Assembly (NCBI GenBank): GCA_001603275.1
Contig: LUYM01000028.1
Coordinates: 62,001 to 126,000, forward strand
Source of the DNA: Actinomycetales bacterium Actino_02
GTDB lineage: Bacteria; Actinomycetota; Actinomycetes; Propionibacteriales; Propionibacteriaceae
DNA length: 64,000 nt
Reading direction: 5' to 3'
The position numbers were made by a program, and so were the translations under genes. Below are positions 4,811 through 56,341 of the stretch, one piece after another (the first letter of the stretch is position 1; every line of letters starts with the position of its first letter). Below the pieces are notes generated by a model. The model was not told the origin of the DNA. It saw nothing but the letters and a program-made list of their open reading frames with translations, and ran no database searches.

Positions 4811-7552
4811 GTGAAGCCGTCACGAGTCCTTGCCATCGCCATGAGTTGGACCCTGGCTGCCCTCGTCGTGCTCACGAACAGCACCCCCGCCAATGCTGCC
4901 TCTGTTTCGGACTCCGCCAAGAAGTCCTTCATCTCAAGCTTGGTCAGCGCCGCTCAGTCGAGCCAGCGCACGTATGGGGTGCCCGCCTCGGTGTCAATCG
5001 CCCAGGCCATCGTGAACACCGACTGGGGCACCTCCGCTCTCGCCAAGTCCGCGAACAACTTCTGGGGGACGCGGTGCACCCGCTCGCTCACCCCGACACA
5101 GTTCGCCGCCCTCGCCGATGCTCAGGTCGGCAAGGCCTACGTGCTGGGTGCAGAGGCGCAGGCCAGTAATCCGAACCCGACCAAGTTCGACTGCTCAGAG
5201 CTGGTCGAGTGGCTGTACTCCCGCTCGGGCAACAAGATCACCGACTTGGCCGCCGCGCAGTACAACGCGACCAAGGCGGTCAGCGGCAGCCCCAAGGTGG
5301 GCGACCTGGTCTTCCTGCGCAACAACCCGGCCCGGTCCAACGGGATCGGCCATGTGGCGATCCTGACCGAGAAGCTCTCCAACGGCGACTGGCGGATCAT
5401 CGAGGCACGTGGGCACGCCTATGGCGTGGTGCGGACCACGTTGTCGTACTGGAAGACGCGGAAGTACTACGCGGGCCTGCGCCGACAGTCCAGCTTCATC
5501 CTGGCCGGCACCGAGGGCGTGGTGTTGGCGGCTAACACCTACAGCCAGCAGTCCAGCTGCATCTCGATCACCACCAATGGCACGTCGGTGCGCTACAGCA
5601 AGTACTCCTCACCCAGCTACTCCTTCGCCGAGCACGCCGACCAGGTGGCCAACTCCAGCGACTACGCTGCGGCCCGCGCGGTGATGTCGGACCAGAGCGC
5701 CTACATCGATGCCATCGCCAAGATCGAACAGGCGAAAACCGCCGCCGATTATGCGAAGAAGCTTCGTGCGGTGATCGCCGACTACAACCTCAGCGATTAC
5801 GACGTGGTGCCCTTCAACCTGGTGCTCGTCTCGGGCAACTCCGGGGAGAAGGTCACCGCCCTGCAGTACCTGCTGAAGAAGGCCGGCGTCTCCGTCTCGG
5901 CCACCGGAAAGTACGACTCGGCCACGGTCTCGGCTGTGAAGAAGTTCCAGTCCAACAAGAAGCTGACCTCTGACGGCGAGGCCGGCCCGAAGACCTTCGA
6001 CGCACTGTTCGGCACTATCTCGTCCGGGGCCTCCGGTGACGGCGTCAACGCGGCCAAGACCTTGCTCGGCCTGGTCGGATACCCGGTGTCCAGCGACACC
6101 AAGCTGTCCGGCACCACCGCCGACTCGGTGAAGGCCTTCCGCTCCGACCAGGGGCTCAGCGCGAGCGCCAATGTCGATTCAAACACCTGGAAGAAGCTGT
6201 TCATGTCGATCACGCCGGCCCCCACGCCGTCGTTGACCGGCACGGCCCAGGTGGCGCAGACGCTGAAGGCTACGCCTGGCACCTGGCTGTCGGGCGCTTC
6301 GGTGAGCTACCAGTGGTACCGCAACGGCAGCGCCATCAGCGGTGCCACCACGACCAGCTACACGCTGCAGCCTGAGGATGCCGGCGCGGTGGTCAGCTTC
6401 GCCGCCACCGGCTCCAAGCCGGCGATGACCTCGGTCACCCGCCGGGCAGCGACCGCGGCCGTGGCCAAGGCCGACCTCACGGCTACCCCGACTCCCACGA
6501 TCAGCGGTACCGCCAAGGCCGGGGCCACTCTGACCGCAGTCCCGGGCAGCTGGGCTCCCGCTCCGGTGAGCTTCGGCTACCAGTGGCTGCGTGACGGAAA
6601 GCCGATCAGCGGCGCAACGGCGGCAACCTACCTGCTGCAGAGTGCCGACATCGGCACGGCGATCTCGGTGAAGGTGACCGGCACCAAGGCCGGCTACAAC
6701 TCGGTCAGCCGGACCTCCGCCAGTACGGCGAAGGTCGCCGCTGCCGATCTCACCAAGACCACCAAGCCGACGATCAGTGGGACGGCCACAGTCGGCAGCA
6801 CGCTGACCGCCAATGCGGGCACCTGGTCTCCGGCTCCGGTCACGCTGAGCTACCAGTGGTACCGCAGCGGCACCGCCATCAAGGGCGCCACCAAGAACAC
6901 CTACAAGCTGGTCACCGACGACAGCGGCAAGGCCATCACGGTGGCGGTCACCGGCACGAAGACCGGCTACACCGAGGTCCGGGTGGTCTCCGATCCGCTC
7001 GCCTCGGTGGTGAAGGCCTCCCTGGAGACAGCGCCGGTGCCAACGATCAAGGGCACCAGCAAGATCGGCTCGACCCTCACGGCCACGGCCGGTGAATGGA
7101 AGCCGGACGGCGTCGCGCTGAGCTACCAGTGGTACCGCAGCGGCAAGGCGATCAAGGGTGCCACCAAGAGCAGCTACAAGCTGGTCACCGACGACGGCGG
7201 CAAGGCCATCACGGTGGCGGTCACCGGCACGAAGTCCGGCTTCGCCAGCGCCACCGTCCGCTCCGCTGCCACCACGGTTGCGCTGCAGAGCCTGAGCGCC
7301 ACCCCCAAGCCGAAGCTCAGCGGAATCCGCGGGGTCAACCACCTGCTGAAGGCGACGGTCGGCAGCTGGAAGCCCGGCGGAGTCACCCTGAAGTACCGCT
7401 GGTACCGCAATGGCAAGGCGATCTCCGGGGCTACCAAGACCAGCTATGTGACCTCGAGCGCCGACCGTGGCAAGACCCTCACCTTCAAGGTCACCGGGTC
7501 GAAGGCCGGCTACAAGAGCGTGAGTGTCACGGTCACCGCGAAGATCAAGTAG
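4811..7552 (+). CDS. Secreted NlpC/P60 protein nested in a degenerate GH73 domain, with PG-binding and Ig-like repeats
   Basis: 913 residues. Signal peptide (1-29, cleavage near ANA-AS); first half of a glucosaminidase (GH73) fold (about 36-89, ending NNFWGTRC); an NlpC/P60 endopeptidase domain (about 93-225) with Cys128 in FDCSELVEW, His181 in GHVAIL and probably His202; then the second half of the GH73 fold (about 250-331, SFAEHADQVANSSDY...YAKKLRAVIADYNLSDYD); two peptidoglycan-binding-1 domains (about 338-400 and 403-465); and five Ig-like repeats of the YQWYRxGxxIxGAT type to the end. At the GH73 catalytic position (usually ESGWG) the sequence is N69-TDWG, so that activity is probably lost and the peptidase is the active part. 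The GTG start at 4811 is chosen for a normal signal peptide; a TTG at 4775 is the alternative. Confidence 0.85.
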   Translation: MKPSRVLAIAMSWTLAALVVLTNSTPANAASVSDSAKKSFISSLVSAAQSSQRTYGVPASVSIAQAIVNTDWGTSALAKSANNFWGTRCTRSLTPTQFAALADAQVGKAYVLGAEAQASNPNPTKFDCSELVEWLYSRSGNKITDLAAAQYNATKAVSGSPKVGDLVFLRNNPARSNGIGHVAILTEKLSNGDWRIIEARGHAYGVVRTTLSYWKTRKYYAGLRRQSSFILAGTEGVVLAANTYSQQSSCISITTNGTSVRYSKYSSPSYSFAEHADQVANSSDYAAARAVMSDQSAYIDAIAKIEQAKTAADYAKKLRAVIADYNLSDYDVVPFNLVLVSGNSGEKVTALQYLLKKAGVSVSATGKYDSATVSAVKKFQSNKKLTSDGEAGPKTFDALFGTISSGASGDGVNAAKTLLGLVGYPVSSDTKLSGTTADSVKAFRSDQGLSASANVDSNTWKKLFMSITPAPTPSLTGTAQVAQTLKATPGTWLSGASVSYQWYRNGSAISGATTTSYTLQPEDAGAVVSFAATGSKPAMTSVTRRAATAAVAKADLTATPTPTISGTAKAGATLTAVPGSWAPAPVSFGYQWLRDGKPISGATAATYLLQSADIGTAISVKVTGTKAGYNSVSRTSASTAKVAAADLTKTTKPTISGTATVGSTLTANAGTWSPAPVTLSYQWYRSGTAIKGATKNTYKLVTDDSGKAITVAVTGTKTGYTEVRVVSDPLASVVKASLETAPVPTIKGTSKIGSTLTATAGEWKPDGVALSYQWYRSGKAIKGATKSSYKLVTDDGGKAITVAVTGTKSGFASATVRSAATTVALQSLSATPKPKLSGIRGVNHLLKATVGSWKPGGVTLKYRWYRNGKAISGATKTSYVTSSADRGKTLTFKVTGSKAGYKSVSVTVTAKIK

Positions 7553-54019: not shown

Positions 54020-54741
54020 CGAGCCAGTGCCTCCTGCTGAAGCCGGGTCAGCTGCGCACAGCCGGCCAGCCCCAGGTCGAGCAGCTGGTTGAGCACGTCA
54101 CGACTGAACGGCTTGCCCTCGGCCGTCCCCTGGACCTCGATCAGCTCGCCGGTGCCGGTGGCCACCACGTTCAGATCGACCTCGGCGCGAGAATCCTCTT
54201 CATAGGGCAGATCGAGACGCACTTCGCCGTCGATCACGCCCACCGAGATGGCCGCCACGGAGCCGATCAGCGGTTCGCCGGCGAGTGAGCCGCGGGCTCG
54301 CAGCCAGGCGACCGCATCGGCCAGCGCCACGTACGCGCCGGTGATGGAGGCGGTCCGGGTGCCGCCGTCGGCCTGCAGCACGTCGCAGTCCAAGACGATG
54401 GTGTTCTCGCCGAGGGCCTTGTAGTCGATGACGGCGCGCAGGCTGCGTCCGACCAGGCGGCTGATCTCATGGGTGCGTCCGCCGATCCGGCCCTTCACCG
54501 ACTCGCGATCGCTGCGGGAGTGAGTGGCCCTGGGCAGCATGGCGTACTCGGCGGTCACCCAGCCCAGACCGCTGCCCTTGCGCCAGCGCGGGACGCCCTC
54601 GGTCACCGAGGCGGCCACCAGCACCCGGGTGGCACCGAACTCGACGAGCACCGAACCCTCTGCATGGTCGAGCCAGTTCCGGGTGATCCGGACCTCTCGA
54701 AGTTGGTCGGCTGAACGTCCATCGGCTCTGGTTGCAGGCAT
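54016..54741 (-). CDS. rph: Ribonuclease PH
   Basis: 241 residues. Phosphorolytic 3' trimming of tRNA precursors. Marks: [85 protein letters not shown] and [28 protein letters not shown] ends 6 nt before the ATG, a leaderless start, and opens the rph-rdgB-thyA-folA-dinB run. Confidence 0.97.
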
Positions 54742-54812
54742 GGCGACAGCCTAGCGAGCGGTGCAGACACCGCCGGACAGCGGCTCTAGGTATTCTCTCG
54801 ACATCGTCAGAG

Positions 54813-54843
54813 TTGCCAGATCGCATACCCCCTGGGGTATGCT
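54813..54843 (+). promoter_or_regulatory. Promoter with CsoR-family-type operator
   Basis: A perfect 9-2-9 inverted repeat, GCATACCCCCTGGGGTATGC (54823-54842), between TTGCCA (54813-54818) and TATGCT (54838-54843; 19-nt spacer). The ATACCCC-n-GGGGTAT core is the established operator form of the CsoR/CstR/RcnR family of copper or persulfide sensors. Together with the genes that follow, it suggests a CstR-like persulfide response; no csoR-family gene is in the window. Confidence 0.75.
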
Positions 54844-54878
54844 TCTCTCATCCGATTCAAACGAGGAGTGAGTGCCAA

Positions 54879-55055
54879 ATGTGTAGTCCGGTCACCTGCA
54901 GGGTCTGCGGCAAGACGACCTGGTCCGGTTGTGGTCAGCACGTAGCCCAGGTCAAGGCAATGGTCCCGGCCAGCCAGTGGTGTGGCGGCCAGCACAGGGA
55001 CGCCGAGCTGGCTGCAGCGAAGCCCAAGGGCATGTTCGGCATCTTCGGGCGATGA
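54879..55055 (+). CDS. Small cysteine-rich protein, unknown function
   Basis: 58 residues with a GAGGAG ribosome-binding site. Six cysteines: C2, C7, C10 (VTCRVCGKTTW), C18 (SGCGQH) and C35 (QWCGGQH) with two histidines, so it could bind a metal or carry sulfur. The motif CxxCGKTTWxGCGQH is familiar from many actinobacterial genomes as an uncharacterised small protein. It overlaps the rhodanese lipoprotein gene by 4 bp (ATGA). Note that I count five Cys clearly; any metal stoichiometry is speculative. Confidence 0.8.
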   Translation: MCSPVTCRVCGKTTWSGCGQHVAQVKAMVPASQWCGGQHRDAELAAAKPKGMFGIFGR

Positions 55056-55495
55056 AACTCGTCCCCCTGGCCGCAGCGCTGGTCGCTGTCGCCACCCTCG
55101 CCACCGGCTGCAGCTCCCCGGCTGCCAGCTCGGTGAGCGTGACCGCCGGCCCGACGGCAGCCTCAGCCCCGGCCGCCGGCTCATCATTGCCCGCTGCCGA
55201 GTTCGCCGCCGCCGCCAAGCGAGCGAACACGGTGCTGCTGGACGTCCGCACCCCCGCGGAGTTCGCCAGTGGCCACCTGGCCGGCGCAGTGAACCTCGAC
55301 GTCGAGTCAGCCGACTTCGCCACCCAGGCGGGAACGCTCGATCCGGCGAAGAGCTACGCGGTCTACTGCCGTAGCGGAAATCGCTCCAAGGTGGCCATGA
55401 CCGCCTTGCAGCAGCTCGGCATCAGTTCGCTGTATGACCTCAGCGGCGGTATCGGCGCCTGGCAGTCCGCCGGCGGCGAGATCGTCACCAACTGA
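55052..55495 (+). CDS. Rhodanese-domain lipoprotein
   Basis: 147 residues. N-terminal signal and lipobox (AVATLATGC, Cys about 20), a Ser/Ala/Pro linker, and a rhodanese domain (about 48-145) with active-site C in VYCRSGNRSKVAM and LDVRTPAEFASGHLAGAVNLD. It would transfer or bind sulfane sulfur outside the membrane. It is coupled to the small Cys-rich protein and lies behind the CsoR-family-type operator. Confidence 0.9.
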   Translation: MKLVPLAAALVAVATLATGCSSPAASSVSVTAGPTAASAPAAGSSLPAAEFAAAAKRANTVLLDVRTPAEFASGHLAGAVNLDVESADFATQAGTLDPAKSYAVYCRSGNRSKVAMTALQQLGISSLYDLSGGIGAWQSAGGEIVTN

Positions 55496-55537
55496 GCCCC
55501 CCAGAGGTCGGGCAGGTATGCATCGGTAAGCGCTGAT

Positions 55538-56341
55538 TCAGACGGTGTAGACCTGCTCCACCCGATCGACGAAGCCGCCCATCAGTCGGCGGCCGATCCC
55601 GGCGAACAGCTCCGGGCTACCCGTGGTGAGGAACCGCAAGTCGGGCTCCCGGGGGCCCCCGCGCAACAGCCCGGCATCCAGCAAGGTGGCGTAGACCTCC
55701 TTCGCACACTCCTCAGCCGAGGAGACCAGGCTGACCTCGTCGCCGATCACATATGAGATGACACCGGACAGCAGCGGATAGTGCGTGCAGCCCAGAATCA
55801 GGGTGTCGATGCCCGCCTCGCGCAGCGGCAGCAGATAGCCGCGGGCCGCGTCCATCAGCTCTGGGCCGCTGGTGATCCCGGCCTCCACGAACTCCACGAA
55901 TAGCGGGCAGGGCGCGGTGACCAGCTCCAGGTCGGGCACCGCGGCCAGTGCGTCGTCATAGCTGCCCGAGTTCGCCGTGGCTTCGGTGCAGATCAGACCG
56001 ATCCGACCGCTCCGCGACGTCCGGACGGCCCGGCGCGCGGCCGGCAGGATCACGTCCACCACCGGAATGTCGTAGCGCTCACGTGCATCCCGCAGCACCG
56101 CGGACGATGCCGAGTTGCAGGCGATCACCAGCGCCTTCACACCGGTGCCGGCCAGGTAATCCAGGCACTCCAGGGCGTACTCGCGGACCTCACCCAGGCT
56201 CTTGGTGCCGTAGGGAGCTCGGGCCGTATCGCCCAGATAGACCATGTCCTCGCCAGGCAGCTGATCCAGCAGTGCCCGGGCCACGGTCAGTCCGCCGAAG
56301 CCGGAATCGAAGACGCCGATCGGCGCCTCAGTAGTGGTCAC
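55538..56341 (-). CDS. murI: Glutamate racemase
   Basis: 267 residues. Makes D-glutamate for peptidoglycan. The two catalytic Cys lie in ALVIACNSASSAV and LILGCTHYPLL; the N-terminus is PIGVFDSGFGGLTVARAL. GTG 56341 is chosen from the homologous start; TAGAGT ends 8 nt before it. The D-Glu it supplies is later amidated by MurT/GatD, encoded at 27.1 kb. Confidence 0.96.
   Translation of the reverse strand: MTTTEAPIGVFDSGFGGLTVARALLDQLPGEDMVYLGDTARAPYGTKSLGEVREYALECLDYLAGTGVKALVIACNSASSAVLRDARERYDIPVVDVILPAARRAVRTSRSGRIGLICTEATANSGSYDDALAAVPDLELVTAPCPLFVEFVEAGITSGPELMDAARGYLLPLREAGIDTLILGCTHYPLLSGVISYVIGDEVSLVSSAEECAKEVYATLLDAGLLRGGPREPDLRFLTTGSPELFAGIGRRLMGGFVDRVEQVYTV

Follow-up and report, generated by a model that had tools for sequence, protein, structure and literature searches.

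A conserved cysteine-rich mini-protein behind a CstR-type operator and its possible part in sulfane-sulfur handling

We analyzed a stretch of 64,000 nucleotides (hereafter the window), which is C28:62001-126000 of a 3.05-Mb genome in 31 contigs, and characterized a gene pair encoding a 58-residue Cys/His protein and a predicted exported rhodanese behind a CstR-type operator. The small protein is an undescribed family, sharply bounded, within a known type of regulon. The operator, its recurrence, the linkage to CstR genes, and the conservation of the Cys/His pattern are read from sequence, and on this evidence the operator is very probably under CstR control. The likeliest function of the small protein, which we rate a little below even, would be that of a sulfane-sulfur acceptor with zinc.

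Results

The gene pair and its operator

The features of the locus are as follows, with positions in the window.

54813..54818, + strand: weak -35-like hexamer TTGCCA, by eye
54823..54842, no strand: CstR-type operator GCATACCCCCTGGGGTATGC, containing ATACCn6GGTAT (inverted-repeat and pattern searches; consensus as given in the available part of PMC7533328)
54838..54843, + strand: -10-like hexamer TATGCT, into which the right operator arm extends, by eye
54863..54868, + strand: RBS-like GAGGAG, 10 nt 5' of the start codon of the small gene
54879..55055, + strand: small gene, 58 aa, starting MCSPVTCRVCGKTTWSGCGQH... (ORF translation and alignment of relatives)
54879..54995, + strand: presumed metal/sulfur core (codons 1-39), C2, C7-x2-C10, C18-x2-H21, and C35-x3-H39
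55026..55052, + strand: aromatic-basic C-terminal tail KGMFGIFGR
55052..55495, + strand: lipoprotein-type exported rhodanese, 147 aa, loop CRSGNRS (Pfam; lipobox and loop by eye)

A sequence-only reading of the locus had described a perfect 9-2-9 palindrome of the CsoR-family type upstream of the gene pair, and an inverted-repeat search confirmed it. The arms, GCATACCCC-CT-GGGGTATGC, are 9 nt each with a gap of 2 nt and are 100% complementary, and the palindrome at 54823-54842 is the sole inverted repeat of at least 8 nt (copies up to 60 nt apart) in the region 54600-55700. The assignment to the CsoR family also held, in that the operator equals the published ScCsoR element ATACCn6GGTAT, which is matched exactly at 54825-54840. 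According to the available part of PMC7533328, this element of ScCsoR, a CstR-like protein of S. coelicolor, was obtained from gel shift and a motif search, and hydrogen polysulfide (HSnH) detaches ScCsoR from its promoter. At up to three mismatches, ATACCCCNNGGGGTAT was found at a single place in the window, the exact operator; shuffles average 1.30 at this loose level, so only the exactness of the match counts.

The palindrome had further been placed in the spacer and -10 of a promoter. This position is plausible and not proof, because the promoter is poor: a sigma-70 consensus scan found no promoter at the locus, and the best hexamers by eye, TTGCCA and TATGCT separated by 19 nt, are weak. 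The bases 3' of the operator appear similar in relatives (by eye, uncounted). Both reading frames are as first described; the 58-residue Cys-rich ORF lies at 54879-55055, and the bases ATGA at 55052-55055 are common to it and the second ORF, which gives the reported overlap of 4 bp.

The description of the second gene as an exported rhodanese is supported by a lipoprotein-type N-terminus (by eye) and a Pfam Rhodanese domain (E 8e-19, 68.4 bits versus a cut-off of 22.2). We take its CRSGNRS loop to be the active-site Cys loop of rhodaneses. Like the PspE/GlpE-type single-domain rhodaneses, the protein is predicted to be an exported single rhodanese domain, but it differs from them in being lipoprotein-type, in having a CstR-type operator, and in not reaching the GlpE and PspE cut-offs of NCBIfam.

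The same operator elsewhere in the genome

Exact ATACCN6GGTAT occurs seven times in the whole genome versus 0.75 expected from the base composition of the window, and exact TACCCN4GGGTA six times versus once for the pattern read backwards. When one mismatch is tolerated, ATACCN6GGTAT exceeds its backward pattern only slightly (17 places versus 9). The seven exact sites were assigned to genes by position and Pfam.

C1: before a YgaP-like TM protein
C10:7289: before a Pyr_redox_2 flavoprotein, SQR-like (Pfam gives the fold only; the rest by eye)
C10:9988: before thioredoxin-cstR
C17: before an uncharacterized membrane protein
C28: before the small gene and rhodanese pair
C29: before a Fer4_20/Pyr_redox protein, not evidently sulfur-related
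C30: before a CoA-disulfide-reductase-like protein in which a rhodanese domain begins

Genes of the sulfur-response type thus stand behind four of the six other sites (trx-cstR, SQR-like, CoADR-rhodanese, and YgaP-TM), and the targets at two of the seven (C17 and C29) are not evidently sulfur-related. The gene pair, a compact module in the sequence-only reading, is therefore not self-contained but one among several loci of its own genome that share the operator.

The membrane protein behind the exact ATACCn6GGTAT at C17:14939-14954 (locus L125) has 190 aa and contains a GCPVCNK motif. It matches no Pfam family and may be a further unassigned target of CstR.

Genomic neighborhoods of relatives

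Relatives of the small gene were fetched with the pattern [TS]WxGCGxH[VI][DE], the residues of which are conserved by construction in the 80 named loci. These loci were the top 80 among at least 586 matches and so favor close relatives. The query set for neighbors within about 4.5 kb comprised eight proteins, and five of them were tallied; some contigs were shorter, and related genomes do not count as independent. Among these best 80 of at least 586 matches, a CstR-type gene lies within about 4.5 kb in 52, ATACCn6GGTAT within 350 bases upstream in 45, and one or the other in 66, which cover 40 of the 48 genus-type labels. The same best 80 of at least 586 also have neighbors that are CoA-disulfide-reductase-like (28), persulfide-dioxygenase-rhodanese-like (17), a separate rhodanese (16), or a thioredoxin (16); the operator or any of the five tallied neighbors is found at 69 of them and neither at 11. 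Exact TACCCN4GGGTA is present in 40 of the 80 upstream regions (again the best 80 of at least 586) versus 1.25% of 642 control windows, which may themselves contain other true sites. Nothing related to the genome's YgaP-TM or C17 protein was found in the scored neighborhoods of the 80 named loci.

One of the 11 loci, L115 (about 5184-5315) of a Propionibacteriaceae MAG, has the small gene flanked by thyA/rdgB-type genes and murI, the same chromosomal place that it occupies in the window, but this copy has neither operator nor rhodanese.

Close relatives were scored at 30 loci, namely, the window, one from the same order, and 28 from the same family (L153 was not scored). Exact TACCCN4GGGTA was detected within 350 bases in 16 of these and a rhodanese directly after the small gene in 8, with the window in both groups. 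The pairing of small gene and rhodanese thus recurs at seven loci besides the window. In the phylum sample, 9 of the 30 best-scoring loci, window included, have exact TACCCN4GGGTA within 300 bases. The family survey bears out that sulfur-type neighbors and rhodanese recur, and the rhodanese is one of several partners, the others being CstR, CoA-disulfide-reductase-rhodanese, persulfide-dioxygenase-type genes, and thioredoxin.

At L069:3236-6162 (Propionibacteriaceae MAG), the small gene stands directly behind genes for a class-V aminotransferase (cysteine-desulfurase-like) and an MnmA-type tRNA thiolase, all three on one strand; this arrangement, a single case, favors sulfur transfer. MMPL-type transporters are encoded near the small gene in L017, L030, L075, L100, L108, L120, and L121, and weaker matches to the MMPL query in L040, L051, L061, L084, L096, L106, and L111. 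In L028, L030, L036, and L038, from a group distant within the phylum, the operator, at 13 bases before the start of the small gene, overlaps the start codon (TACCCN4GGGTATG), so that either the repressor would sit on the translation start or another promoter would be used.

Sequence and predicted structure of the small protein

In an alignment of 27 rows, taken from 27 of the 30 loci listed from the sequence search, the residues M1, C2, C7, C10, W15, G17, C18, G19, H21, and C35 are invariant, and C35 is followed by an alternating slot, which is H39 in the protein of the window. A larger set of 158 distinct sequences was fetched by W.GCG.H alone (2 of 160 with another CxxC spacing were set aside); the residues of this pattern are conserved by construction in the set, whereas Cys2 and the slot after C35 are not. 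Cys2 directly follows the start codon in all 158 members (151 ATG and 7 GTG). Removal of Met before Cys would give an N-terminal Cys. All 158 members also have a Cys at +2 or a His at +3 or +4 after C35, more than one of these occurring in only 4, and the 2 members with an earlier Cys nevertheless have the Cys at +2. Metal binding is the best reading of a ligand that shifts among three positions and between two residue types, and it is because of this slot that we adopt a metal-binding reading of the small protein.

An AlphaFold2 model of the small protein consists of a β-hairpin and a helix (mean pLDDT 78.8, pTM 0.49), which is compatible with a small zinc finger but is not proof of one. Foldseek on this model gave a single match at E 6.2 and VIA-align none, and no known zinc fold was supported. 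The statement of the earlier reading that the small protein has no assigned function stands: neither Pfam nor NCBIfam had a family above cut-off, and none appeared for the protein (P0001) even at E 10. For 75 members (alignment A2, with rows hand-picked from the loci and GTG-start members and near-duplicates omitted), the matches were weak and scattered, with several zinc-finger families among them; the lowest E-values were 0.0014 (Pfam) and 0.0034 (NCBIfam). No TusA or DsrE Pfam domain was among the families matched by the small protein or the 75 members, no PHROG relative was found, and a partial literature search returned no published description of the family. The sole PDB sequence match, to a cerato-platanin-like protein at E 0.043, was taken as chance. 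CDGSH iron-sulfur proteins have the consensus C-x-C-x2-[ST]-x3-P-x-C-D-G-[SAT]-H; membership was rejected with the consensus in 0 of the 75 members, although L085 reads WCDGSH locally.

A metal site would show a Cys/His pattern whose last ligand slides, and the small protein might be a CstR-controlled zinc reserve, or a protector of zinc sites against sulfide-caused zinc loss, that transfers no sulfur. We consider this unlikely, but it is the main rival, because exogenous sulfide triggers a zinc-limitation response in S. aureus (in the available part of PMC5480029). The fixed Cys2 of all 158 members is not obviously needed by a plain zinc site, and the neighbors found, by the query proteins scored and in plasmid annotation, are sulfur-transfer and redox genes.

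The C-terminal tail brings in another possibility. A loose GFFxRLFGR-like pattern, aromatic-basic and placed behind a variable linker, is found in 66 of 127 relatives of at least 50 aa and is absent from paralogues of 37 to 39 aa, which often stand beside the long form. With such a tail, the protein could dock as a subunit onto an enzyme or the membrane and modulate CstR, CoA-disulfide reductase, dioxygenase, or a transporter, and the MMPL transporters are recurrent neighbors. Nevertheless, the tail is not universal, the invariance lies in the core and not in the tail, and no partner is constant across the loci, and we regard an adaptor as decidedly improbable.

Microbacteriaceae and some relatives have two close paralogues: a long one (about 61 aa) that ends in the aromatic-basic tail, and a short one of 37 to 39 aa that is the bare core. 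Such pairs occur at L039, L044-L046, L049, L050, L054, L057-L059, L066, L076, and L082.

Distribution and linkage to CstR

The family is present in 149 of 197 genomes in the sample of the window's taxonomic family (sequence search) and in 36 of 296 genomes of the phylum sample, where sequence search and profile search gave the identical 36. None of the eight sampled genomes of genus g4 (7-10 Mb) gave a match. The small protein at L159, from a genome of the window's taxonomic family, is identical to that of Acidipropionibacterium jensenii (L060), which makes Propionibacteriaceae the probable family of the window. A phage origin was considered, but viral occurrences comprise only five viral-contig loci and one unannotated phage record. 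Replacement of TusA by the small protein was examined and is not supported: TusA is found in 16 of the 36 family-bearing genomes versus 168 of the 260 others (p 0.027) and, within the class, in 3 of 11 versus 9 of 15, and with a within-class p of 0.13 and TusA in the window's own genome, no such replacement is claimed.

In the phylum sample, which was not selected for the family, a strong match to the CstR of the window's genome (E ≤1e-18) was obtained in 20 of the 36 genomes with the family versus 20 of the 260 without (Fisher p 5e-11), a p value that is indicative because the genomes are related and the cut-off was set after seeing the E-values. A distance of at most 3.1 kb separates the small gene from a CstR-like gene in 15 of the 36, with nine of these pairs within 200 bases; three of the 15 pairs (G102, G162, and, for G268, the linked copy) fall short of the E-value cut-off. 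The other 16 of the 36 genomes have no strong CstR match, 8 of them none at E 0.001, and CstR control is thus common, not universal.

The patchy distribution over the phylum sample and the fact that no phenotype is known would suit a minor structural zinc-finger protein, carried along under real CstR control with no specific sulfur role. The linkage or operator in 40 of the 48 genus-type labels (best 80 of at least 586 matches) and the strongly conserved Cys pattern argue against it, which leaves this reading very improbable.

Two CsoR-family regulators

The sequence-only reading implied a CsoR-family protein in the genome, and two PF02583 proteins are present. The C29 protein has the copper CsoR pattern Cys-x24-His-x3-Cys and its gene adjoins a CopZ-like gene (by eye), and the C10 protein, encoded after thioredoxin, reads Cys...G...Cys, with Gly replacing the copper-ligand His as in CstR. 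All 52 CsoR-family genes neighboring the small gene match the C10 CstR better than the copper-type CsoR, and their residues at the copper-His position are A (26), G (20), S (3), I (2), and R (1), with His in none. Near the copper-type csoR lies the repeat TACCCCCACAGGGTA, a single example, whose half-sites are one base farther apart than those of the CstR-type sites. Half-site spacing might separate the copper CsoR and CstR regulons. With two regulators and a differently spaced repeat, the persulfide and copper branches appear to be separate, and the CstR branch fits the gene pair better. The response to persulfide or copper that had been proposed for the pair is accordingly kept in its sulfane-sulfur branch, and these regulator and spacing data speak against the copper branch. 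Two imperfect repeats were observed on C29 near csoR (L001:1905-1945), one of them with the wider half-site gap.

In mycobacteria, a metallothionein is under CsoR-family control, a parallel to a copper reading of the small gene. On sequence grounds, the copper-type CsoR may also be a candidate binder of the palindrome, and the protein is small and Cys-rich and CsoR-family operators are alike (the ScCsoR site resembles copper CsoR and RicR sites in the available part of PMC7533328), but the missing copper His, the closeness of all 52 neighbors to CstR, the extra base in the csoR repeat, and three annotated plasmid records with no feature named copper ATPase leave copper control of the pair disfavored and a copper-binding mini-metallothionein under copper-type CsoR the least probable of the readings.

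Discussion

Proposed mechanism

In the explanation that we prefer, a CstR-type repressor, the product of trx-cstR on C10, would bind the palindrome over the -10 hexamer and block transcription. Rising cytoplasmic persulfide or polysulfide would modify CstR, and the repressor would leave the DNA. Derepression would then yield the small protein and the lipoprotein rhodanese alongside thioredoxin, the SQR-like enzyme, the CoA-disulfide reductase-rhodanese, and the YgaP-type membrane protein. The small protein would fold around zinc via its Cys/His cluster, and the always-N-terminal Cys2 together with other thiolates would take up sulfane sulfur, which the protein may buffer or pass to rhodanese-type enzymes; thioredoxin would recycle it, and the exported rhodanese would handle sulfane sulfur outside the membrane. 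For this explanation as a whole, CstR repression plus a zinc-thiolate acceptor, we see an even chance. Repression and release in this organism, the zinc, the acceptance of sulfur, the direction of transfer, and a role of the tail are the parts that we infer. The genome itself encodes TusA and a DsrE-like protein, and a further carrier is therefore not strictly needed.

We propose tentatively that the 58-residue protein may be the type of a hitherto undescribed class of bacterial carriers or buffers for sulfane sulfur, in which a zinc-thiolate mini-protein with an N-terminal Cys, under CstR control in actinobacteria, would store persulfide sulfur on a metal-thiolate cluster and pass it to rhodanese, CoA-disulfide reductase, or dioxygenase, as a functional counterpart of metallothionein-3.

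Comparison with known systems

In the S. aureus cst operon and the B. licheniformis yrkD cluster, the targets of the CstR-type repressor are SQR, persulfide dioxygenase, rhodanese/sulfurtransferase, TauE, and thioredoxin (available parts of PMC5480029 and PMC9918477), kinds similar to those found here. As far as the same parts of these papers describe them, these clusters use TusA/DsrE-type or multidomain carriers, whereas here a new small Cys/His protein is added; in addition, the operator sites are scattered over the genome, in contrast to the clustered systems. The small protein may share with TusA/DsrE carriers the role of a small sulfane-sulfur carrier in a CstR regulon, but it has no Pfam match to either. 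The ScCsoR circuit of S. coelicolor (PDO, rhodanese, TauE, and CsoR-like) likewise combines an actinobacterial CstR-like repressor with the same ATACCn6GGTAT, and in the available part of PMC7533328 ScCsoR senses via a single persulfidated Cys, unlike S. aureus CstR. That part of the paper gives the circuit four genes and describes no small Cys protein, whereas one is present here.

In metallothionein-3, a small protein with zinc thiolates, sulfane sulfur is bound as C-S-S-Zn, and thioredoxin efficiently reduces the oxidized apo form (available part of PMC12618007). The likeness of the family to it, as far as that source goes, is a functional analogy only (small, Cys-rich, zinc thiolates, sulfane sulfur, and a link to thioredoxin), and no sequence relation is claimed; the small protein differs in its lower number of Cys, its conserved His, and its modeled hairpin and helix.

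CstR regulons are known for enzymes, and here a conserved, unnamed mini-protein recurs near CstR in many actinobacterial genera. Its invariant N-terminal Cys and shifting metal-type ligand suggest a missing step in persulfide handling and a zinc-reactive sulfur link, and together with the CstR-type switch the protein points to an overlooked part of the way in which these bacteria cope with sulfide. With the family defined, a 'hypothetical protein' present in most genomes of the family sample can also be annotated. Three annotated plasmid records use this same label for the small protein. In a Microbacterium plasmid record, its neighbors are thioredoxin, MBL-fold hydrolase, TauE/SafE, DUF4395, and rhodanese; in the Rhodococcus jostii RHA1 plasmid record, the small protein is near rhodanese, MMPL, a metal-sensitive regulator, DUF2892, and TauE/SafE, and in a Paenarthrobacter plasmid record, it stands before DUF2892.
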